A stretch of DNA of 20,622 nucleotides. Source: a virus. The stretch lies in IMG/VR virus record IMGVR_UViG_3300043446_005921, positions 1-20,622 of that record; one strand, 5' to 3'. The notes below the pieces were generated by a model. That model ran no database searches. It was not told the DNA's origin and saw only the letters and a list, made by a program, of their open reading frames with translations. The translations under genes were made by a program, and so were the position numbers. Below, in pieces: positions 3,089-18,994 of the stretch (position 1 is its first letter; each line of letters starts with the position of its first letter).

Positions 3089-3652
3089 CTAGTTGTCCGG
3101 GTTGATCGGGTACTCGTATGACATGGCTGAGGTGACCTCGCCCGGTTTCGGGGCCTCGATCGGCACCCACGCCCTCGAGTACTGGTGCTGGCCGACCGCC
3201 TTCATCTTGACGTAGCGGGCATCGCGGAGGACGTCGAACTCCTCGGACGTCATGCACAACGCCCGGCGCAGACCGTTGGGGTCGTACTTGCCCGACGCGA
3301 GCACCTCGTTGAGCAGGCCCGACACGCGTTTCGCGACGACCATCCCCCTGCCACGGTTCAGCCTCATGTGCATCACCATGGCGTCGACCTCGTCGCAGTC
3401 GACGACGTTCACCGGCACCTTGTCCCCGAGGGCCGACGCGACCCTCGGTTCGGTGACCAGCAGCCGGTACCGTTGGTTGCCGTCGATGACGAGCCCGTCC
3501 CGGTTGACGACGAGGGGGCAGAGCCAGCCGTGCCCCAACAGCGAGTCGGTCAGGAGCCGTTCGTCGGGGCGCAGCACGAAACTGGTCGCCCATGGCGCCG
3601 GGGTGAGCTCGCCCACCTTGCGGGCGGTCGTGTTCATGATCTTGTCCCTCAT
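3089..3652 (-). CDS. ParB/Srx-fold protein (IbrB-like), second of two
   Basis: 187 residues. A ParB N-terminal-like domain covers about residues 12-105: an opening ELTPAPWATSFV, then WLCPLVVNRDGLVIDGNQRY with the family's G-N-Q-R-Y-R box at about 58-63. That box corresponds to the CTP/phosphate-binding G-E-R-R box of ParB. No ParB helix-turn-helix DNA-binding domain is evident downstream; the remaining residues (LLNEVLASGKYDPNG, then LRDARYVKMKAVGQH) are mostly helical. The start ATG at 3652 overlaps the stop of the PAPS-reductase-like gene as ATGA. Pairs of a PAPS-reductase-like protein and a ParB-like protein are known as IbrA/IbrB in enterobacteria and recur in phages. The biochemical role of the pair is unclear to me, so only the fold and partnership are claimed. 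Confidence 0.82.
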   Translation of the reverse strand: MRDKIMNTTARKVGELTPAPWATSFVLRPDERLLTDSLLGHGWLCPLVVNRDGLVIDGNQRYRLLVTEPRVASALGDKVPVNVVDCDEVDAMVMHMRLNRGRGMVVAKRVSGLLNEVLASGKYDPNGLRRALCMTSEEFDVLRDARYVKMKAVGQHQYSRAWVPIEAPKPGEVTSAMSYEYPINPDN

Positions 3653-4779
3653 CCGTCCATCTCCGCCTGTGCGGCCTGCTTGCGTTTCCAGTCCTTCGTC
3701 TTCGGCCCGACCGGACGTGGGCTCGTGTTGTGGAACTCGTTCAGCATCAGCGACCTGACGAGCCACCCGATCGGGTAGGAGAGCGGGTCGTTGAGGTGTT
3801 TCTTGCGGAACTCGGCCGCGAAACCCATGGCCGCCTTCTTCATCCCCGGGGTGAGCATGTTGTCGGCGATGCAGTTGCGGACACCGTCCCACCCGTCGGC
3901 GGCGTAGTCGTCGATCAGCGTGTCGATGTCGAACTCGGGCCACAGCCGGTACTGGGCGTCGATCTGCGGGAACGCCTCGTACAGGGGTTGGTACCACTCG
4001 GGTTCGGCGGCGATGTAGTCGCGCAGCCGGCGGATGCTGACCGAGTGGAGGGGGATGCCGACGCGTTGCACGCCACCGACCATCGACGCGAGGTCGTAGT
4101 ACTCGCACCACGACGCACCGTGTTCCTCGTGGAGGAACTTCGCCACGTCCGCCTCGAGCCAGTCGTAGATCGGTTTGCCGAACATCAACGGGATCGACTT
4201 CGGCATCTTGAACGGCTTGGTGATGTAGTTCTCGTTCAGCTTGTTCACGACCGACCGGTAGCGCACCATCGACTCGTTGGCGCGAACCCCGGTGAGGAAG
4301 CAGGTGCGACCGACCTTGCCCTGCATCGTGTAGTAGTCGATGGACTCGGGGATGGCCTCGTACTCGGAGAGCCCGAAGTGGCGGGCGGTGATCGCCCACG
4401 GCGGCATCTGCCGGGTGAGCCGCCCACGGTCCCGTCGGCCACCCGACCACAGCAGCACGTACTCGCGTCGTCCGAGCACCCAGCACTCCTGCCCGACGGG
4501 GAGCGCGTACCATTCCATGTCGACCCAGTCGTAGGAACGGACCTCCTCCACGAACTTGACGACAGCGGGCGACACCATCTCCTCGTCGCGGAAGATCACC
4601 TTGACGGGGCCGAGGCCGCGTTCCTCGTGGACCTCCTTGGCGAGGTAGAGGACGGCGGTGGAGTCCTTGCCACCCGAGAACTGGACGGCGACGGTGTCGA
4701 AGGTGTCGTAGATGTGCCGGATTCGTTGCCGTGCCCCGTCGACGCACGACATGTCGAGGAACATCCGCTGACGGCTCAC
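3649..4779 (-). CDS. PAPS reductase-family PP-loop ATPase (IbrA-like)
   Basis: 376 residues. The adenine-nucleotide alpha-hydrolase PP-loop SGGKDS is at residues 35-40, in the context FDTVAVQFSGGKDSTAVLY. An acidic strand follows (VIFRDEEMVSP), and GRTCFLTGVRANESMVRYR (about 173-191) matches the conserved G-x-R-x-x-E-S-x-x-R of the family. The C-terminal half, including the FGKPIYDWLEADV segment and a helical tail, is longer than in sulfate-assimilation CysH and fits the IbrA/DUF3440-type branch. The Cys pair of true thioredoxin-dependent PAPS reductases is not obvious. The start is GTG at 4779 (ATG at 4764 is the alternative), overlapping the stop of a 10-codon mini-frame. It is flanked on both sides by ParB-like genes, with an ATGA overlap to the downstream one. 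Probable nucleotide or sulfur chemistry; substrate unknown. Confidence 0.88.
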   Translation of the reverse strand: MSRQRMFLDMSCVDGARQRIRHIYDTFDTVAVQFSGGKDSTAVLYLAKEVHEERGLGPVKVIFRDEEMVSPAVVKFVEEVRSYDWVDMEWYALPVGQECWVLGRREYVLLWSGGRRDRGRLTRQMPPWAITARHFGLSEYEAIPESIDYYTMQGKVGRTCFLTGVRANESMVRYRSVVNKLNENYITKPFKMPKSIPLMFGKPIYDWLEADVAKFLHEEHGASWCEYYDLASMVGGVQRVGIPLHSVSIRRLRDYIAAEPEWYQPLYEAFPQIDAQYRLWPEFDIDTLIDDYAADGWDGVRNCIADNMLTPGMKKAAMGFAAEFRKKHLNDPLSYPIGWLVRSLMLNEFHNTSPRPVGPKTKDWKRKQAAQAEMDG

Positions 4780-4808
4780 CCGCCGCCCCGCCGGTCGGTT
4801 TTCGTCAT
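4776..4808 (-). other. 10-codon mini-frame linking ParB-like and PAPS-like genes
   Basis: One base after the stop of the upstream ParB-like gene, an ATG at 4808 opens a frame encoding MTKTDRRGGG. Its TGA overlaps the GTG start of the PAPS-reductase-like gene (GTGA). It may carry ribosomes across the 30-nt gap so that the third gene is coupled. The alternative is chance, since the peptide itself shows no function. Confidence 0.3.
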
Positions 4809-4809
4809 C

Positions 4810-5589
4810 TCAGACCTCCGAGTGGGCGTCGATGAAGGACATCAGCTTCGCCGTGATGGTGTCGCCGTCGTAGGCGGGCTGGGCGCGCAACCAGCGCACG
4901 AAGTCCCACCACCGGCCCATCTGCGACGCCTCGTCGAACACGATGTTGTAGGAGAACACGGCCTGCTTGGTGCCGGCCTGCCCGGTAACGGTAGCGCCAC
5001 CGGTGACGGCGGCGTTCTGGTCGATCCCCTTGGGGGCCTCGTAGCGAGACGGTTCGTCGAGGGTGACGGGTCGGGTGACGGTGGGGGCGAGCGTCGGGTC
5101 GGTGAGCACGGGGGGGATGTACCCGCCGGACGCGCCGGGTGCGGCAAGGCCGCTGCCGACGGTCTCGGCGTCGACGCCCATGGAGGCAATCTCGAAGTCG
5201 TCCCAACCGACCGAGTCGAACAGTTCGGGCATCTCGTCGTACACGTCGACGATGTGGTCGTGGAGGCGGCCCTTGTCGATTGACCCGAGCTCGCCGAACC
5301 TGTTCTCGACGAGGGCGAACGCTATGGCGTCGGCCTCGCTGCCGGTCATCTCGGTGACGGCGAGCCGGTCCCAGCCGAGGCGTTTCGCCGCTTCCAGCTG
5401 GTGGTTGCCGGACATCACCGTGGAGGTGCCGTCGCCGTTCGCCTTGACCACGATCGGTTTGAGCTGCCCGAACCGCTGGTACGACCGCATGATCGCGTCG
5501 ACGTTGCCGTTGCGCGGGTTGTCGGGGAGCGGGACGAGCGTGTTGACGGCGACGGCGAGCTTCTCAAGGGAGGGGTGGATGTTGTTCAT
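4810..5589 (-). CDS. ParB-like nuclease-fold protein, first of two
   Basis: 259 residues. The N-terminal ParB domain (about residues 8-110) is well formed. It shows NTLVPLPDNPRNGN (16-29), the helix VDAIMRSYQRFGQLKPIVV, and the nucleotide-binding box SGNHQLEAAKRLGW (60-73), followed by DAIAFALVENRFGELGSID. Such stand-alone ParB-N proteins in phages are annotated as ParB-like nucleases or DNA-modification partners. The C-terminal 120 residues have a low-complexity Gly/Pro/Thr linker (about 145-200) and then a distinct globular segment (KQAVFSYNIVFDEASQMGRWW...DAHSEV, about 207-259) that I do not recognise. The start ATG at 5589 overlaps the upstream stop (ATGA) and has GAGGAG four bases ahead. 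It heads the cassette with the PAPS-like and second ParB-like genes. Confidence 0.85.
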   Translation of the reverse strand: MNNIHPSLEKLAVAVNTLVPLPDNPRNGNVDAIMRSYQRFGQLKPIVVKANGDGTSTVMSGNHQLEAAKRLGWDRLAVTEMTGSEADAIAFALVENRFGELGSIDKGRLHDHIVDVYDEMPELFDSVGWDDFEIASMGVDAETVGSGLAAPGASGGYIPPVLTDPTLAPTVTRPVTLDEPSRYEAPKGIDQNAAVTGGATVTGQAGTKQAVFSYNIVFDEASQMGRWWDFVRWLRAQPAYDGDTITAKLMSFIDAHSEV

Positions 5590-7045: not shown

Positions 7046-7347
7046 CCGTCCTCCCAGCCGTGGCGCGCCAGTCCGAGGTCGAACGCCAAGGCGGGGTGCT
7101 TCCCGATGCGTTCGTGGCACGGCCTGCACACCGCCAGCACGTTCGCCTCGTCGAGGATCGAACCGCCCTGCGACCGGCGGACGAGTTCGTGCACGTCCTG
7201 CGACGGTCGCCGCGCGTAGACGCGTTTGCCGTCGTGCGAGGCGAACACCGGGCACGCCTCGCACCACGGGCGCCCGGACAGGACCCGTTCGACGAACGGT
7301 CGGCGCTCCCGGTAGAGCGCTTCCTGCTTGGCCGACCGTTTCCTCAC
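7024..7347 (-). CDS. HNH endonuclease-type protein
   Basis: 107 residues. The HNH signature is DVHELVRRSQGGSILDEANV (about 50-69) followed by LAVCRPCHERIGKHP. It is framed by two zinc Cys pairs, C-x2-C at about 29-32 (PWCEACP) and C-x2-C at about 73-76 (CRPCH). The N-terminus is highly basic (RKRSAKQEALYRERR). Small phage HNH proteins near the terminase can assist packaging cleavage or nick DNA; free-standing homing nucleases look similar. The GTG start at 7347 overlaps the glycosyltransferase stop as GTGA, which argues for a normal operon member rather than an inserted homing gene. Its end overlaps the convergent winged-helix gene. No terminator is visible between the two. Confidence 0.85.
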   Translation of the reverse strand: MRKRSAKQEALYRERRPFVERVLSGRPWCEACPVFASHDGKRVYARRPSQDVHELVRRSQGGSILDEANVLAVCRPCHERIGKHPALAFDLGLARHGWEDGQRPSSS

Positions 7348-8435
7348 CCGAGGAGTCCGTCGACGAGGTCGTCGAGTTCGCGTGCCTGCCGTGCGGCATC
7401 GAGGTGGTGGCGGACGAGCGACCACTGCCGCACCGCCTCCTCCTGCCGCACGTCGGGGTCGGCGAGTTCGTGGATGTGCCGGAGCCACTGTTCCTTCGAC
7501 ACGGCGACACGGCCGATCCCGAACTCGTCCCGCAGGCGCAGGTACTCGGGGGAGCAGCTGGCGACGAACGGGATGCCCGCGGCCGCGTACTCGAGTCCCT
7601 TGATGAACGACTTGGCACGGTTGAACGGGTGGTCCGACAGCGGGACCACCCCGATGTCGAAGCACAGCCCCGACGGGTACTGCCACGGTGGCAGCAACGG
7701 CATCGTGGTCACCCGTCTGCGGTGCAGGCCGACCTCGTCGGCGAACAGGGTGTGGGCGGGGTGGAGGTCGCCGGTGTGGTGCCAACGCCATTCGGGGGGG
7801 AGTTCGTTGGCGAACTCGGCAAGCACGACGAGGTCGTCGGAGCGGTGCGCCGTGGAACCCGTCCAGCCGATCGTCGGTGGCCCGTCGGAGTGCATCCGGG
7901 GGGTGAAGTCCGAGGTGGCGACCCTGTTCTGGACGACGACGGCCGGCACGTCCCATTCCCGCATCCTGTCGGCCAGCCACGGGGTCGAGACGGTGACCGC
8001 CGTGGATGCCCGGAGTGTCGCTAGGTAGTGGTCGACGTTGGAGTCGGGGCTGTGCCCGGGGTCGACCGCCTTCGCCGCAGCGTTGGACGGGTGGATGCCC
8101 CAGAACCAGTCGTCCACGTCGTTGACGACCACTTGGCCGAGGGCGACCGCCTCGGTCACCGCCTCGGTCACCCAAGAGTCCATGAGCCGCTGCAGGAAGA
8201 TGACGTCGCACCCGAAGTAGAACTGGCCGTCCCACCCGGCGATGCCGAGTCCCTCGGGGCCGGCGACGAGGCCGCCGACGATGATCCGGTTCCGGGAACG
8301 GTTGACCAGTTGGCCGAACCTCACCCAGCCGGCACCGCCGAGCGACGGTTGGCCGGTGTGGGCGGTGACGGTGTGGGACCAGTCGTTCGTGGCGACACCG
8401 ACGAACTTGGTCCGGCCGGGGGTCTTCGACGCCAT
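7344..8435 (-). CDS. Glycosyltransferase, GT4/GT-B type
   Basis: 363 residues. The C-terminal GT-B half is clear: PPTIGWTGSTAHRSDDL opens the second Rossmann domain, then FDIGVVPLSDHPFNRAKS and FIKGLEYAAAGIPFVASCSP, which is the donor-binding motif in which the family's E-x7-E is reduced to K...E-Y. The N-terminal domain includes VVVNDVDDWFWGIHP and STAVTVSTPWLADRM, an acceptor-side arrangement common in group 1 transferases. The start is ATG at 8435 in a TGATG overlap, and the end overlaps the HNH gene. The protein would move a sugar from a nucleotide-sugar to an unknown acceptor, which could be host surface glycan, virion protein or modified phage DNA. Its place among DNA-processing genes hints at DNA, but no base-hydroxylating enzyme is in the window. 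Confidence 0.85.
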   Translation of the reverse strand: MASKTPGRTKFVGVATNDWSHTVTAHTGQPSLGGAGWVRFGQLVNRSRNRIIVGGLVAGPEGLGIAGWDGQFYFGCDVIFLQRLMDSWVTEAVTEAVALGQVVVNDVDDWFWGIHPSNAAAKAVDPGHSPDSNVDHYLATLRASTAVTVSTPWLADRMREWDVPAVVVQNRVATSDFTPRMHSDGPPTIGWTGSTAHRSDDLVVLAEFANELPPEWRWHHTGDLHPAHTLFADEVGLHRRRVTTMPLLPPWQYPSGLCFDIGVVPLSDHPFNRAKSFIKGLEYAAAGIPFVASCSPEYLRLRDEFGIGRVAVSKEQWLRHIHELADPDVRQEEAVRQWSLVRHHLDAARQARELDDLVDGLLG

Positions 8436-12352: not shown

Positions 12353-12571
12353 GTGCATCCTGCGCGCCCTTCCGACCGCAACCAGAACGTGACCGTCAGG
12401 GAGAGGGTGTCGTCCGTCCCCCTGTCCCGCTCCATGGTCGCCTACCTGTTCGTCGGTGCGGCCCCGCTGGCCGTCGGTGCCGGGCTCGGCATCGAACTCG
12501 GGGCGGGGTGGGGGATTGCCGCCGCCGGCGGCGGGATGTTCCTCGTCGGATGGTTGCTGGGGGCCGAGTAA
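12353..12571 (+). CDS. Small membrane protein, unknown function
   Basis: 72 residues. A polar, basic N-terminus of about 27 residues is followed by two hydrophobic Gly/Ala-rich segments: MVAYLFVGAAPLAVGAGLG (about 28-46) and WGIAAAGGGMFLVGWLLG (about 53-70). The short turn between them suggests a hairpin in the membrane. It begins with GTG seven or so bases after AAGGTGG, and its TAA overlaps the portal ATG (TAATG), so it is probably real and coupled to the portal. Holin-like shape is possible, but a gene leading the head operon is an odd place for a holin. I leave the function open. Confidence 0.65.
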   Translation: MHPARPSDRNQNVTVRERVSSVPLSRSMVAYLFVGAAPLAVGAGLGIELGAGWGIAAAGGGMFLVGWLLGAE

Positions 12572-14874
12572 TGGCGTGGAACACCTCCAACAAGGCCGTC
12601 ACCGTCGCCGAGCAGAAGGCGATTCCGTACGGCGCACCCGTGTCCACCAACGCCGCCAACCAAGAACGCGGCTACTACGACGGCTGGGACATCGAACGGG
12701 TGTTCAAGGAGGGTGTCAAGAAGGTCACGTGGGTGTACCGGTGCATTGACGCCATCGCCGGCAACCAAGCCCGCCTCCCGATGGTCGGCCGGCACGGGAA
12801 CAAGCCCGACGGGGCGATTGTCGTCGACGACGAGATCCTCGACCTGCTCAACCTGCGTGCGAACCCGGGTGAGGACGCGTTCGCGTTCCGCTACCGGCTC
12901 TCGGCGCAACTCCTGACCTCGACCCGTGGGGCGTTCGTCGAGGTGTTGCGCGGCCGGGGCGGCAAGGTCATCGCCCTCAACCTGCTCCCGCCGCAGTACA
13001 CCTCCCCGGTGCCGGACGCGAAGAAGTTTGTGAAAGCGTTCCAAGTCCACCTGCCCGGCCAGCCACGCACCTTCCTCAACCCGGCCGACGTGCTGTGGTT
13101 CAAGCACCCCCACCCGCTGGACCCGTACCTGTCGATGACCCCGCTCGAGTCCGCCGGGGTCGCCGTGGAGATCGAGGTGTTGGCGAAGTTCTACAACCGG
13201 TCGTTCCTGCTCAACGACGGCCGCCCCGGCGGCCTGCTCGTCGTGCGCGGCGAGATGGACGACGACGACAAGTCCGAACTGGCGATGCGGTTCCGCGGCA
13301 ACGTCCAACGGGCGGGCAGCATCTCGGTCATCGCCTCGGAGGAGGGCGTCGACTTCGTCGACACGGGCGCAAACCCACGCGACGCCGCCTACATCCAGAT
13401 GCGCCAGATCACCAAGGAGGAGATCCTGTCGGCGTTCGGCGTGCCCGAGTCGGTGATCGGCAACGCCGCCGGCCGCACGTTCTCCAACGCCCTCGAGGAG
13501 ACACGGGTGTTCTGGCTCGAGACGATGCCCCAGCACCTGCACATGCTGTGCCGGGGCTTCGACCCGCTCCACGACGAACTGTGGTTCGACTTCGACACCT
13601 CGAAGGTGCCGGTGCTGATGTCGGCGGAGCAGGAGAAACACCGCTACCTCATGCAGGAGTTCCAAGCCGGCCTGCTCACCGCCAACGAGTACCGCGACGG
13701 CACGGGCCGCAAGAAGGTCGAGGCCGACCTCGCCGACTCGATGCTCGCCAACCCGAACCTCGCCCCCATCGGCAACACCGCACGAAAGCTCGACTTCGAC
13801 CAAGGTGCCGCGCCCGGGATGCCCGGCGCACCCGGGATGCCGCCCGGCCCCGACGGCGGGGTACCGCCCGCCGCCCCGCCGCCCGAACCGGGCAAACTCC
13901 CGGCACCGGCCCCGGCGTCGGAGGGGGGTGTCCCGGACGGCATGGTCCAGATGGCCGACGGGTCGGTCGTCCAACGCCCACCCGGCGAACCGACCCCCGA
14001 GTACGAACTCTCCGCCCACGTCGGCACCTTCGGGACGAAACAGGCCCCCGGCAGCGGGTTCCCCGCGTCGTGGGACACCAAGGCCGAGGCCGATGCCGAC
14101 CGGTGGGTCGAGATCATGGACACCTCGCTGGAGCGACTGTTCGACCGCCAGCAGCGGGTGGTGCTCGAGAAGGCGACCGGGGCCAAGGCGCGTCGGTCGT
14201 TGTCGGCGAAGGAGCTCACCGTCGACCAGATCTTCGACACACAGGTGTGGAACAGGCAGCTCCGCGAGGATGTCGCCCCCCTGCTGTCCGCCATCGTGAA
14301 GGACGCCATCTCCACCTCCGGGTCGGCGACCGGGCGTCCGACCGACCCGTCGTCGCCCGAGGTGCAGGCGTACATCGACCAGCAGATGGAACGGCTCGAG
14401 AAGGCGAACTCGACGACACGCGAAGAACTGGCGGGAGCAATCCTGACGTCGTTGGCGATGAACGAGTCCGACGAGGACGGCCACCTGCTCCTCAAGGCCG
14501 CCATCGTCGCGATCTTCGCCCACCTGTTGGCGAAACGGCGCCGCCGCATCGCCGAACACGAGGCACAGGCGGCGTACAACGCCGGCGTGTGGCTCGCCGC
14601 CGAACAAGTGGCGTCCCAAGGGGGACGTCCCGCCGGTGCCGTCGAGGCCGGTGGCGATGCCGCCGGCCCGACCGGGGGGATCCCGGTGTCCAAGACGTGG
14701 GTGACCCGCATGGACGCTCAGGTGCGTGATTCGCACCGTCTGCTGCACGGCAAGACCGTCCCCCTCGACGAGGGGTTCGAGGCCGACGGGACCGTACTCC
14801 GGTTCCCCGGCGACCCGTTGGCACCGCCGTCGCTGACCATCGGCTGCAGGTGCCGCCTGCGGTTCGGTGTTTGA
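12571..14874 (+). CDS. Portal protein fused to a MuF-like minor head domain
   Basis: 767 residues, against 400-550 for a usual HK97-type portal. The portal part (about 30-400) includes VYRCIDAIAGNQARLPMV, then FVEVLRGRGGKVIALNLLPP and VLWFKHPHPLDPYLSMTPLE, then KEEILSAFGVPESVIGN and FSNALEETRVFWLETMPQHL, all strongly typical. A Pro/Gly collagen-like linker (about 412-475) follows. Residues about 500-767 are helical and end in the SPP1 gp7/MuF signature: KTWVTRMDAQVRDSHRLLHG, PGDPLAPPS and IGCRCRL. The portal forms the 12-mer entry channel for DNA, and MuF proteins are carried inside heads or ejected with DNA. The ATG at 12571 overlaps the upstream stop. The continuous frame with consistent coding character argues against a sequencing artefact. 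Confidence 0.93.
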   Translation: MAWNTSNKAVTVAEQKAIPYGAPVSTNAANQERGYYDGWDIERVFKEGVKKVTWVYRCIDAIAGNQARLPMVGRHGNKPDGAIVVDDEILDLLNLRANPGEDAFAFRYRLSAQLLTSTRGAFVEVLRGRGGKVIALNLLPPQYTSPVPDAKKFVKAFQVHLPGQPRTFLNPADVLWFKHPHPLDPYLSMTPLESAGVAVEIEVLAKFYNRSFLLNDGRPGGLLVVRGEMDDDDKSELAMRFRGNVQRAGSISVIASEEGVDFVDTGANPRDAAYIQMRQITKEEILSAFGVPESVIGNAAGRTFSNALEETRVFWLETMPQHLHMLCRGFDPLHDELWFDFDTSKVPVLMSAEQEKHRYLMQEFQAGLLTANEYRDGTGRKKVEADLADSMLANPNLAPIGNTARKLDFDQGAAPGMPGAPGMPPGPDGGVPPAAPPPEPGKLPAPAPASEGGVPDGMVQMADGSVVQRPPGEPTPEYELSAHVGTFGTKQAPGSGFPASWDTKAEADADRWVEIMDTSLERLFDRQQRVVLEKATGAKARRSLSAKELTVDQIFDTQVWNRQLREDVAPLLSAIVKDAISTSGSATGRPTDPSSPEVQAYIDQQMERLEKANSTTREELAGAILTSLAMNESDEDGHLLLKAAIVAIFAHLLAKRRRRIAEHEAQAAYNAGVWLAAEQVASQGGRPAGAVEAGGDAAGPTGGIPVSKTWVTRMDAQVRDSHRLLHGKTVPLDEGFEADGTVLRFPGDPLAPPSLTIGCRCRLRFGV

Positions 14875-14903
14875 CGGCAATACGGCACGGCATAGACGGC
14901 AAT
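14873..14903 (+). repeat. Direct repeat of GACGGCAAT, 22 bp apart
   Basis: Identical 9-mers GACGGCAAT at 14873-14881 and 14895-14903 lie at the portal stop and just after it, two helical turns apart. They could be regulator half-sites or chance. They open the 91-bp portal-protease gap. Confidence 0.35.
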
Positions 14904-14914
14904 CTTCCGCCACG

Positions 14915-14952
14915 GTGTGACACCCCCGGTTTAGGGTGTGACCGAGTGTGAC
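14915..14952 (+). repeat. Three GTGTGAC motifs with 21- and 10-bp phasing
   Basis: GTGTGAC occurs at 14915-14921, 14936-14942 and 14946-14952, so all copies face the same side of the helix. The first two also bracket a 6-bp hairpin (ACACCC at 14920-14925 with GGGTGT at 14934-14939). A similar GAGTGTGACC lies at 3080-3089 in another intergenic gap. This may be an operator or activator array for the protease gene. Confidence 0.4.
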
Positions 14953-14955
14953 CAC

Positions 14956-14960
14956 GGAGG
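14956..14960 (+). promoter_or_regulatory. Ribosome binding site GGAGG deciding the protease start
   Basis: GGAGG is followed after five bases by GTG at 14966. An earlier in-frame GTG at 14948 would place this site inside the coding sequence and has no ribosome site of its own, so 14966 is chosen. Confidence 0.7.
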
Positions 14961-14965
14961 AACCA

Positions 14966-17900
14966 GTGAAGAACCTGCACTTCAAGGCCATGAACGGCCA
15001 GATGACCGTTGACGAGGCGCAGGGCATCGTCGAGTGCTTCGTCGCCGCCATCGGCAACAAGGACAGCGTTGGGGACATCATCGTCCCCGGGGCGTTCGAC
15101 ACCTCGTTCCGCAAGCGCAAGCCCCGCGTCGTGTGGGGCCACGATTGGAACCAACCCATCGGCAAGGTCCTTGAGATCTACGAGGTCGGCCCCCGCGACC
15201 CCCGACTGCCCGGCAAGATGAAGCAGGCCGGTGTCGGCGGCGTGTTCGCCAAGGTCCAGTTCAACCTCGCCAGCGAACGCGGCAGGGAAGCGTTCTCCAA
15301 CGTCCTGTTCTTCGGCGAGGAACAGGAGTGGTCGATCGGCTACAAGACCCTTGACGCCGTGTGGGACCCGAACACGCAGGCCAACGTGCTGCGGGAACTC
15401 GAGCTCTACGAGGTCAGCCCCGTCCTCCACGGTGCCAACCAGCTCACCGGGACCATCTCCATCAAGGATGCCAAGGGCGAGGAGAAGGACGAGATCACCT
15501 CGTTGCGCGACTCCAAGTGGGACACCTTCGACATCGCTTGGGCCAAGAAGCTCAAGGACGAGCACCCCGACATCTGGGCCAAGGGCGGCAACATCAAGGG
15601 CAACGACCAGTGGCGGATCCTCACCCAGATCGCCGCCAAGGGCAGGGCGACGACGCAGGCCGAACTGAACGCCCTCAAGCTCCGCGAGGCGTGGATCGCC
15701 CGCCACAAGGGCGACTTCCGGCTCCCCGGTGTCATCGCACAGATCAAGTGGCTCGCCGTCGGCACCCGTGGCGAGGACTACATGAAGGACATCGTGCGCG
15801 AGGCCGTCGACCGGGGCGAGAAGGACGACCGCCACGGGTTGTCCGTCAAGGGGCACGACTCGGGGGTCACCCCGGGGGCGTTCGTGCGGTGGTCGTCGTC
15901 CGGTGGGACAGCGTACGGCAAGGTGCTGAAAGTCGTAAAGGGAGGCGTCGTCAAGGCCAAACCCGTCGGCCCCTCGATGAGGGGGACCGCCGACGAACCC
16001 GCCGTGCAGGTCCGCGTCTACCGCTTCGCCGACGGACGATGGGACGAGACGGAAACCGTCACCGTCCACCGCCACGACGCCCTGCAGGCGGTCGAGGGAC
16101 TCCCCGAGTCGAAGGCCGCCCCCGGAGCGGAGAAGCTGCAGAACCTCGCCGACGCCCTCGGCGACCGCATCCCCACCGGCTCCAACCTCGTCCCCGACGT
16201 CCTGCCGCAGGAACGCGTCACCGGCGACGTCCTCCACGGGCACGGCCCACGGCGCGGCAACCTCGAGAAGCTGCTCCGCTACTGGCGGCCGATCATGCGC
16301 AAGCCCGGCGGGTTCCGCCGCTGCCGTGTGATCCTCGCCGACCACCCCGAGTTGTACCCGCTCGAGAACCTGTGCGCATGGCTCCACCACGAGACGACAG
16401 GTCTGTGGCCCAACGAGGGCTGTCACCACCCGGGGATGAAGAACTGCCGCCGCAAGCTCAAGCGCGTCGTGAACGGTTCGCTGTTCTCCGACTCCGAGTT
16501 CGACAACCGCCTCCGCCGACTCGGCAAGTCGGCCGACGGGATGACCGACTACGACTACTGGGCAGGACAGGAAGGGCTGCCGTGGGACGAGGACTACGAG
16601 GACCACGAGGAGTACGAGGACGAGGAGCACGAAGCCGACGAGGAACTCATGCTCGAGTTCGGTGAGGCACTGCGCCGTTTCGCCCGGCAGGAACCCGAGT
16701 TCATGGACTACCTCGCCGACGACGACAACTGGGTCCACGAAGGACAGGAGCACGACGAGGACGACTGGCACGAGCACGTTGCCCTCGTACCCATGGGCAA
16801 GCAGGGCTGCGGGTGCGGGGGAGGTTGCGGAGGCAAGGCCGAACCCCACGGGGACCTCGCCGGGAAGGCCGGACGCACCCTGTCCACACGGAACCGCACC
16901 AAACTGCAGGACGCCGTCCAACTCATCAAGTCCGTCATCGACGAGGGCGAGATCACCGTCAAGTCGGCCACCGTCACCTACCTCGCCTCCGACGACCCCC
17001 ACGGGCTCGCCTCCGGCATCGCCCCCGTCGTCGCCCACCACGACCTAGCGATTGTCGTGGAACCCGGCGTCATCGGGTTCAAGTCGGACAACATGACCGC
17101 TGCCGCCGCCGAGGCGCTCTCCAACGCCTTGGGTGCGTTCGGCTACGACGCCAAGGGCTTCCTCCGCCGCATGATCGGCGGGAACCGTGGAGGGGGAGGC
17201 GGCCGTCGGGCCATCGGCCGGGCACGCCAGATCGCGGCGGCGTACGAACCCGACGCCTTCGACGGCGACAACGACGGCATCGTGCAGGACCACACCCCGT
17301 TCGAGCGACCGGCGGCCGCACGGGCCGCCGATACCGCCCGGAAACTCGTCAGCGATGCCGAAGCGGCGATGAGCCTCGACGACGGAGGGATGGGGATGGG
17401 TGACGCCGTCAGGTCGATCCTCGGCAACAACGACCGCCCCAACGGTGAGGGGGAGGTCAAGTTCTGGACACCTATCATCTCCCGCTCCATGTCGGGCGAC
17501 CTGACCGGCGGCGAGCACGCCGACCTGTTCGACTCAGGTCTCCACCGCATCGCCTACCCCGACGGCGACGGTCCCGCCGCAACCGTGTCCGGCATCGTGC
17601 GACGCGGCGACAGCAAGGTCGTCGCCGACGGTTCGGACTGGGCCGACACCAATCTCGAGAGCCTGTCGAAGGGTGACGTCGTCGTGTTCAGGGACGGCTC
17701 CCGTGGCGTCGTGTCGGGGATTGCCCTCCCCGAACTGAACGACAGCGACCAGAACATGAACGAGGACGCCGGTTTTGACGTCGAGCTCACCCACGTGCGC
17801 GGTGTCCCGGTAGCCCCCGACGAGTTCGGCGACACCAAGCACCGTCGGGCCGTCACCGACCCGGCCGACATGGGGGAGGACCAGCTGAAGGTCATCAAGG

Positions 17901-18994
17901 GTGACCGACGGACCGTCGACCTCGCGAAGGGTGCCGACAAGAAGTTCAGCGACAGCATCGCCCCGAAGAAGCAACCGGACGACTCCGCAGCGGCGAAGGC
18001 ACTGCTCAAGGAATCGCAGAACTACGACAAGAACGTGGCCGACGGATGGGAGGAACTGTCCAAGCTCGTCGGCTCCAACGACCTCACCGAGGGCGGCCTG
18101 CTCACCGACGAACTCCAACTCAACCCCGGCAACGACCCCCAAGACTCGTTCGGGGTGTCCGGCAAGTTCGTCGACCCGGAAGCGGTCACCGGCAACGAGA
18201 TCATCCACGACGCCGAGACGGGTCGCGTCGGTGCGGTCCTGTCGGCCGACGACCCGGCCGAGGGGGACAGGGCGAACGACGTCAACGTGCTGTGGTTGTT
18301 CGGCAGGGACGGCAAACCGCTACCGCTCGGTGGGGACAACGAGGACACGCTCTCGTCGGAGAACATCCGGACCGGCCCCGGCGACGGCAGCCGCTACGAG
18401 ATCTCGCGTTCCGACGCCCTCGAGGCGTTCGACCTGACCGGGTTCGCCGACACGGTCACGTCCACGCAGTCGGCCATCAGCATGCGTGTCAGGGAGGCCA
18501 TCGCCGCCGACGACCCCGACATGATCTACGCCCTCAAGGACCGTCTGTCCCCGACCGTGTACATGGCGCTCCTCGAGCGGTTCAACCGTCTGTCCGGCAG
18601 GGGGGCCAAGTCGGCGCTCAGGGTCGGGCTCGGCACCCACAAGTCGCTCCTGCCCGTCGTGCGACACCACGACATCCCCCACACGATCGACGGCAAGGGT
18701 GTCTCGTACGACCTCGCCTCGGTCACCGAACAGGCACGCGACGCCCTCACCACCGCCACGGCGGCGTTGGAGGCGGAGACCAAGCGCGACTACTCGACGA
18801 CGACGAGGGACTCGTACGCCGGCAAGGGCTGGGCACTGCCCGACGGCTCGTTCCCGATCCGCGACAAGGGTGACCTCGACAACGCCATCAAGGCGTACGG
18901 CAGGGCCAAGGACAAGCCGGCGGCGAAGGCGCACATCGTGAAACGGGCACGGGCACTCAAGGCCACGGCGATGCTGCCGGAGGGTTGGGCATGA
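14966..18994 (+). CDS. Giant multidomain HK97-family prohead protease
   Basis: 1342 residues, against about 200-250 for a simple prohead protease. Residues 5-165 are the protease: VPGAF (40-44), H59 in WGHDW, S123 in EWSIGY and LELYEVSPVLHGAN (145-158). After it come an SH3/Tudor-like segment (about 300-375, FVRWSSSGGTAYGKV) and a Trp/His/Cys segment (about 439-500, with LCAWLHHETTGLWP) familiar from actinophage head proteases. Next are an acidic run (540-562), a C615-G-C617-GGG-C621 cluster, GRTLSTRNRTKLQDAV (about 636), and an EF-hand-like loop DGDNDGIVQD (766-775). A long unrecognised part (about 800-1260) precedes a C-terminal module (LPDGSFPIRDKGDL...RARALKA, about 1291-1342). The protease should process head proteins. 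The other parts may act as scaffold or internal proteins, perhaps released by self-cleavage. Confidence 0.92.
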   Translation: MKNLHFKAMNGQMTVDEAQGIVECFVAAIGNKDSVGDIIVPGAFDTSFRKRKPRVVWGHDWNQPIGKVLEIYEVGPRDPRLPGKMKQAGVGGVFAKVQFNLASERGREAFSNVLFFGEEQEWSIGYKTLDAVWDPNTQANVLRELELYEVSPVLHGANQLTGTISIKDAKGEEKDEITSLRDSKWDTFDIAWAKKLKDEHPDIWAKGGNIKGNDQWRILTQIAAKGRATTQAELNALKLREAWIARHKGDFRLPGVIAQIKWLAVGTRGEDYMKDIVREAVDRGEKDDRHGLSVKGHDSGVTPGAFVRWSSSGGTAYGKVLKVVKGGVVKAKPVGPSMRGTADEPAVQVRVYRFADGRWDETETVTVHRHDALQAVEGLPESKAAPGAEKLQNLADALGDRIPTGSNLVPDVLPQERVTGDVLHGHGPRRGNLEKLLRYWRPIMRKPGGFRRCRVILADHPELYPLENLCAWLHHETTGLWPNEGCHHPGMKNCRRKLKRVVNGSLFSDSEFDNRLRRLGKSADGMTDYDYWAGQEGLPWDEDYEDHEEYEDEEHEADEELMLEFGEALRRFARQEPEFMDYLADDDNWVHEGQEHDEDDWHEHVALVPMGKQGCGCGGGCGGKAEPHGDLAGKAGRTLSTRNRTKLQDAVQLIKSVIDEGEITVKSATVTYLASDDPHGLASGIAPVVAHHDLAIVVEPGVIGFKSDNMTAAAAEALSNALGAFGYDAKGFLRRMIGGNRGGGGGRRAIGRARQIAAAYEPDAFDGDNDGIVQDHTPFERPAAARAADTARKLVSDAEAAMSLDDGGMGMGDAVRSILGNNDRPNGEGEVKFWTPIISRSMSGDLTGGEHADLFDSGLHRIAYPDGDGPAATVSGIVRRGDSKVVADGSDWADTNLESLSKGDVVVFRDGSRGVVSGIALPELNDSDQNMNEDAGFDVELTHVRGVPVAPDEFGDTKHRRAVTDPADMGEDQLKVIKGDRRTVDLAKGADKKFSDSIAPKKQPDDSAAAKALLKESQNYDKNVADGWEELSKLVGSNDLTEGGLLTDELQLNPGNDPQDSFGVSGKFVDPEAVTGNEIIHDAETGRVGAVLSADDPAEGDRANDVNVLWLFGRDGKPLPLGGDNEDTLSSENIRTGPGDGSRYEISRSDALEAFDLTGFADTVTSTQSAISMRVREAIAADDPDMIYALKDRLSPTVYMALLERFNRLSGRGAKSALRVGLGTHKSLLPVVRHHDIPHTIDGKGVSYDLASVTEQARDALTTATAALEAETKRDYSTTTRDSYAGKGWALPDGSFPIRDKGDLDNAIKAYGRAKDKPAAKAHIVKRARALKATAMLPEGWA

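Follow-up and report, generated by a model that had tools for sequence, protein, structure and literature searches.

Among the described systems closest to the locus analysed here is the IbrA/IbrB pair, in which a PP-loop enzyme resembling 3′-phosphoadenosine-5′-phosphosulfate (PAPS) reductase is followed directly downstream by a ParB partner with a DGxxR box; the pair is said to activate eib prophage genes in E. coli, as Sandt et al. reportedly described in 2002. DndB and DndC likewise combine a ParB-superfamily protein with a PP-loop enzyme, and ParB-N genes also stand first in phage DNA-modification sets, both in the Dpd cassettes (Rosebush-type, with DpdA and the ParB-like DpdB) and in TET/JBP hypermodification cassettes (e.g. 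KayaCho, Acadian and Wooper). We describe a related three-gene locus in a 20,622-bp IMG/VR virus record (IMGVR_UViG_3300043446_005921; the whole stretch is referred to as the window), in which a PP-loop ATP-pyrophosphatase gene stands between two different ParB/Srx-fold genes, ParB-U upstream and ParB-D downstream (Table 1). With a probability of roughly 60%, we regard the trio as an uncharacterised phage DNA-modification cassette, in which the PP-loop enzyme would adenylate a target, ParB-D would be its dedicated nucleoside triphosphate (NTP)-binding partner, and ParB-U would act as the DNA-side adaptor.

The strongest functional evidence for the trio is its genomic position. In Mycobacterium B3 phages it lies ahead of the terminase gene with RuvC nearby, and when B3 gp1 (the ParB-U) was used as a query and traced as the first gene through other phages, Mycobacterium cluster B and related phages were found to have a ParB-U relative, then a DNA-modification set, and then the terminase, also with RuvC nearby. 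The intervening set comprises DpdA with QueC/D/E and FolE in TA17A, Nadezda and Knocker, and Finch has the same DpdA/preQ0 set after its ParB-U relative, with no terminase within the stretch read. In KayaCho, Heath, LilMcDreamy, Acadian and Wooper, a TET-like oxygenase gene is accompanied by genes for a base kinase and/or for an amino-acid:DNA transferase or TET-associated glycosyltransferase. These TET matches do not reach the Pfam curated cut-off (E 3e-5 to 6e-4), and Heath and LilMcDreamy are placed via phrog_6059 alone, although the assignments are consistent with the adjoining kinase and transferase genes. Evaa has ParB-methyltransferase genes after the ParB-U relative, and in the B3 phage GlenHope and in Arthrobacter phage Shrooms the slot is filled by the PP-loop enzyme and ParB-D. 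In Rosebush, a member of the TA17A genus with the DpdA set, dPreQ0 is chemically proven at ~28% of the Gs; the same study detected no 7-deazaguanine in phage Orion (PMC6884629). The description of phage CRB2 draws the DpdA/DpdB link for this slot (PMC6392294), and ParB domain genes, their role unknown, have been reported beside another DNA-modifying enzyme (Nat. Commun. 2025; PMC12783734). Because the trio in related phages occupies the slot of established DNA-modification cassettes, DNA modification, one of several roles raised in the first-pass annotation of the window (made by a model from the sequence alone), is the likely one.

The cassettes sharing this slot differ in content. The Dpd cassette includes a transglycosylase and preQ0 synthesis genes but neither an IbrA-type PP-loop enzyme nor the C-terminal tail of ParB-U, and the TET/JBP cassettes use oxygenase, base kinase and transferase chemistry. 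The nearest cultured equivalents of the window trio are in Arthrobacter Laroyevirus phages (Shrooms gp5–7) and Mycobacterium B3 phages (Phlyer and GlenHope gp1, 4 and 5), which have the same gene order and the same ParB-U tail, and whose PP-loop enzymes are ~35% identical to that of the window. Their trio is at the left end of the genome before the terminase, whereas in the window it is situated after RuvC and ahead of a head-tail adaptor gene. Shrooms also has a phrog_11826 methyltransferase, a linked fourth gene in one clade that is absent from the clade of the window; its presence would fit a multi-step modification. We also noted that phrog_6059, labelled queuine tRNA-ribosyltransferase, nonetheless includes Wooper gp2 (a Tet_JBP match) and has members beside base kinases and DNA transferases (Table 1); it looks like a misnamed TET oxygenase family.

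Relatives of the trio were gathered from IMG/VR, isolate phages and bacterial genomes, yielding 107 PP-loop clusters at 90% identity, 82 of which have at least 1.5 kb of flank on each side; ParB-U and ParB-D were counted by position relative to the PP-loop gene. The triplet recurs, with ParB-U upstream and ParB-D downstream in 62 of the 82 flank-complete clusters, clearly contradicting the possibility, raised in the first-pass annotation, that the two ParB genes never accompany the PP-loop gene elsewhere. ParB-like open reading frames (ORFs) are ~100-fold denser near the PP-loop gene (195 in the 473 kb lying within 2.5 kb of it, compared with two in the 513 kb beyond), and all five contigs picked by ParB-U alone also contain the PP-loop gene. 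Phages of Arthrobacter, Mycobacterium, Bacillus, Rhizobium and Faecalibacterium carry the triplet, as do numerous environmental contigs. Among isolate-phage records the PP-loop protein has 215 matches and ParB-D has 219, and the counts per genus are almost the same for the two. Apparent counter-examples, i.e. PP-loop genes without ParBs, do not hold up: two large records (138 and 106 kb) with no ParBs beside the PP-loop gene encode both elsewhere in the genome, and the rest are mostly short fragments, one of them with a ParB-U and seven others, all under 28 kb, uninformative. Upstream of unlinked PP-loop genes there is a gene whose product contains an LNGQHR box (phrog_5931; L034:5304-6449, with nine further loci of this kind), possibly another DGQHR/ParB-like partner, although we do not claim it as one. 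The individual genes of the trio are annotated in GenBank for Arthrobacter Laroyevirus and Mycobacterium B3 phages, and in the openly readable literature we found no paper describing the triplet, the slot or the ParB-U tail.

Reading the trio as a DNA-modification cassette, we infer that DNA is the substrate and adenylation the chemistry. The PP-loop enzyme would bind ATP and adenylate its target, releasing pyrophosphate as ATP is converted to AMP, and a nucleophile would then displace the activated oxygen on the target. ParB-D, an IbrB-type protein with an intact DGxxR NTP-binding box, would be the obligate partner of the PP-loop enzyme. ParB-U, whose ParB-N domain is common to other modification cassettes and in many members lacks the GxxR arginine, would recruit the complex to DNA or gate it, with the PP-loop enzyme docked via the ParB-U C-terminal module. 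In a more specific form, to which we give somewhat less than even odds, this would be an undescribed modification that proceeds by ATP-dependent adenylation of the base or backbone and uses a non-sulfur nucleophile, with ParB-U as an interchangeable targeting subunit bearing swapped tails and IbrA/IbrB as the cellular form of the system.

Several observations weigh against assigning the trio to DNA modification. The literature searched reports no modified nucleoside for any triplet phage, and IbrA/IbrB are described as co-activating prophage genes and are not known to modify DNA. The slot evidence comes from Mycobacterium cluster B, Gordonia and Marvin phages, and in the window itself the trio is downstream of RuvC and several kb from the terminase, and the 20.6-kb record shows no genes for precursor synthesis. 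ParB-U was undetected in four records that have the PP-loop gene and ParB-D (L067, L056, L038 and L069, corresponding to G011, G012, G013 and G015), two of which (G011 and G012) are large, at 70–89 kb.

The relationship to IbrA/IbrB pointed out in the first-pass annotation is borne out by identical PHROG assignments. IbrA of E. coli phage PhiR5_2 matches phrog_2302 (E 1e-82), as does the window PP-loop protein, and IbrB of the same phage matches phrog_2159 (E 5e-91), as does ParB-D. DUF3440, annotated on many cellular IbrA proteins, gives no Pfam match in the window PP-loop protein up to E 1. The window differs in its additional upstream ParB-U, and the third, extra ParB that the first-pass annotation had singled out is indeed mostly missing from cellular pairs: among 80 bacterial loci, 64 have the PP-loop gene and ParB-D without ParB-U, and six have both ParBs. 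ParB-U is therefore mainly a phage addition to the IbrA/IbrB core. In a quick tree, most cellular pairs form a clade of their own and are set apart from the phage proteins, with the root and some long branches unsure. A Rhizobium 'DNA methyltransferase' adjoining IbrA was rejected as such and is a ParB_N protein.

The shared PHROGs, together with the described activation of eib genes and the location of the trio in late operons, make an IbrA/IbrB-type regulator the main rival explanation. The PP-loop enzyme and ParB-D would then activate phage genes, ParB-U would be an accessory DNA-binding protein, and any nucleotide chemistry would serve regulation. We consider this rather unlikely, as activation has been described for one gene family and could itself stem from a DNA mark, and as it explains neither why the slot is the one used by DpdA and TET cassettes nor why these have ParB-U in common with the trio. 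It is less likely still that the trio has a packaging or genome-end function, with the ParBs marking or holding DNA for the terminase and the PP-loop enzyme confined to the packaging site. The trio is near the terminase in Shrooms, GlenHope, prophi79-1 and FP_Taranis, but it does not adjoin the terminase in the window or in Bacillus and Rhizobium phages, its three genes are scattered in two large genomes, and relatives carry genome-wide base-modification genes in the equivalent slot.

Profile searches match all three proteins to known families. ParB-D matches phrog_2159 (E 3e-25) and Noc (7ol9, E 2e-10), and its DGxxR motif is retained in all 54 sequences compared. ParB-U matches phrog_723 (E 4e-29 over residues 7–256) and Pfam ParB_N (E 2e-5, marginally below the curated cut-off), and both ParBs match Noc/Spo0J structures. 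A partition role was rejected for both on their poor scores with partition models: against the full ParB/RepB/Spo0J model TIGR00180, ParB-U reaches 27 bits where the cut-off is 58, and ParB-D has no NCBIfam match. In an AlphaFold2 model (isolate-phage rows were omitted from the structure runs), the ParB-N part of ParB-U is mostly predicted with a local confidence score (pLDDT) of 94–98 and resembles Noc/ParB (Foldseek E 2e-7), followed by a low-confidence linker at about residues 142–210 and two short helices in the tail. The GNHQLEAA box of ParB-U lacks the usual GxxR arginine, which is present in 11 of 50 ParB-U sequences.

The two parts of ParB-U have different distributions. The ParB-N part matches gp1 of TA17A, Nadezda, Wooper, Evaa, LilMcDreamy, KayaCho and Acadian (profile E 1e-19 to 4e-32), whereas the C-terminal ~45 residues match solely in versions adjoining the PP-loop enzyme. 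Searching with the tail alone against 50,697 phage records gave 70 matches (52 Mycobacterium, 12 Arthrobacter and 6 Bacillus), the same genera and counts as the ParB-D carriers in these hosts; the records are equated with PP-loop carriers by these taxon counts, with the accessions checked in part. Because it was found only in PP-loop-bearing phages, the tail is a good candidate for a module that docks the PP-loop enzyme. The unknown C-terminal domain attributed to ParB-U in the first-pass annotation corresponds to this short module of ~45 residues. In Firmicutes-type ParB-U proteins the protein ends instead in a zinc-ribbon-like CPxCG motif. At 35 surveyed loci of Firmicutes phages from gut and rumen, the gene before ParB-U encodes a predicted membrane protein of ~333 aa (e.g. 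L088:2302-3303, with relatives in L118–L197).

The PP-loop protein matches Pfam PAPS_reduct (PF01507, E 4e-9) and phrog_2302 (E 3e-68), and its AlphaFold2 model (pLDDT 88.9; predicted template modelling score 0.84) has as its nearest solved folds the PAPS domain of FAD synthase and CysH (Foldseek E 1e-6), and TilS. In addition to the PP-loop residues (Table 1), the residues invariant among 74 relatives include D65, E67, a GxRxxES motif (G164, R166, E169, S170) and D206-W207. None of the invariant residues is a cysteine; the commonest cysteine, at position 92, is present in 62 of the 74 and is an alanine in the window protein. None of the 74 contains the ECG(L/I/V/M)H motif that is catalytic in CysH, and the DndC cysteine signature is also missing. 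'PAPS reductase' is thus a fold name only for this protein, and the combination of the fold with the missing cysteines and CysH motif fits an ATP-consuming adenylating enzyme rather than a reductase. As the family has no conserved cysteine, a persulfide relay inside the enzyme appears unlikely from the alignment, and the sulfur-based modification suggested as an alternative in the first-pass annotation finds no support. An in-frame intein is present in the PP-loop gene of three IMG/VR records (G019, L306:285-2387; also G020 and G021; Intein_splicing E 1e-6, LAGLIDADG_3 E 3e-8), inserted immediately before the commonly conserved Cys92 (MEWY|C), and this strand may be near the active site.

These features bear directly on the remaining explanations. 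A phosphorothioation-like sulfur modification of the backbone, with the PP-loop enzyme as DndC and one ParB as DndB, is suggested by weak DndC/BrxP matches to the PP-loop region, by the ParB-like nature of DndB (PMC12839542, PMC11662687), and by an earlier comparison of a prophage PAPS-reductase-like protein with DndC (mBio 2021; PMC8092301). DndC requires cysteine for its 4Fe-4S cluster (PMC11662687), however, and the window family, having no conserved cysteines, was rejected as DndC; no DndA, DndD or DndE family was found among the genes scanned in the window, which is a fragment, and we regard this explanation as very unlikely. It seems equally improbable that the trio serves counter-defence or conflict, with NTPase or nickase activity of the ParBs directed at host systems and a signal or decoy made by the PP-loop enzyme: ParB/Srx proteins are able to nick DNA and hydrolyse NTPs (as cited in PMC12839542), but the trio has a conserved head-operon or terminase-linked position rather than that of a variable accessory locus, and counter-defence is possible only as a consequence. 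A sulfur-metabolism auxiliary gene (cysH) reducing PAPS for the host is hardly credible in spite of the Pfam PAPS_reduct match and the listing of cysH as a widespread viral metabolic gene (PMC9301287), as the catalytic cysteine required for a role in sulfate assimilation is missing and a metabolic enzyme would have no use for constant ParB partners. The protein also differs from CysH in an extra C-terminal helical region. That list of globally common viral cysH genes may include members of the PP-loop family without the CysH motif.

The three ORFs of the first-pass annotation, with their coordinates, strand, motifs and ATGA overlap, were all verified on the sequence (Table 1). The PP-loop and ParB-D genes overlap or are no more than 20 nt apart in 87 of 96 relatives, with the exact window-type overlap in 31. 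A 10-codon mini-frame (ATG at 4808, with its TGA overlapping the PP-loop GTG start), proposed as the link between ParB-U and the PP-loop gene, does exist, but the spacing between these genes in relatives ranges from -55 to +1534 nt, so it is not a conserved feature and was rejected as a functional element.

Table 1. Features of the window and phrog_6059 members in other loci.
Feature	Position	Strand	Description
ParB-U	5589-4810	minus	259 aa; ParB/Srx fold; phrog_723; GNHQLEAA box
PP-loop ATP-pyrophosphatase, PAPS-reductase-like/IbrA-like	4779-3649	minus	376 aa; GTG start; phrog_2302
ParB-D, IbrB-like	3652-3089	minus	187 aa; ParB/Srx fold; phrog_2159; DGNQRYR
ParB-N domain of ParB-U	5167..5568	minus	Profile matches to gp1 of other modification-set phages
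C-terminal module of ParB-U (VFDxxxQxxxWxxFxxWL...T)	4813..4959	minus	Proposed docking module; preceded by low-confidence linker
SGGKDS PP-loop motif	4660..4677	minus	ATP pyrophosphate-binding; S35, G37, K38, D39 invariant in 74 sequences
DGNQR (DGxxR nucleotide-binding box of ParB-D)	3470..3484	minus	D57, G58, R61 invariant
ATGA overlap, PP-loop stop/ParB-D start	3649..3652	minus	Read as translational coupling
phrog_6059 members	L298:785-1759, L293:855-1787, L297:819-1697, L295:801-1658

The minus strand encodes, in order, TerL (12287-10977), an Erf-like annealing protein, an exonuclease, a glycosyltransferase, an HNH protein, a RuvC-like resolvase (6705-6115), a small protein, the trio and a head-tail adaptor. 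The glycosyltransferase (7344-8435; phrog_7162, E 7e-30) has a relative in 13 surveyed loci and could decorate either DNA or the virion. The head operon is unusually split, with portal/MuF- and prohead-protease-like ORFs divergent from TerL on the plus strand (12508-18994). The whole window had no megablast match to phages.

If the DNA-modification reading is correct, a gene set present in no fewer than 70 phage isolates and in environmental virus contigs numbering in the hundreds has a function that is open to testing now, as the B3 mycobacteriophages and Arthrobacter Laroyevirus phages are already in culture. The PP-loop enzyme would join the known phage DNA modifiers, and the ParB-N genes beside modifying enzymes would gain a role as partner-specific adaptors. 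It would also point to a possible molecular explanation of IbrA/IbrB, and would mean that certain viral 'cysH' genes currently assigned to sulfur metabolism are something else.

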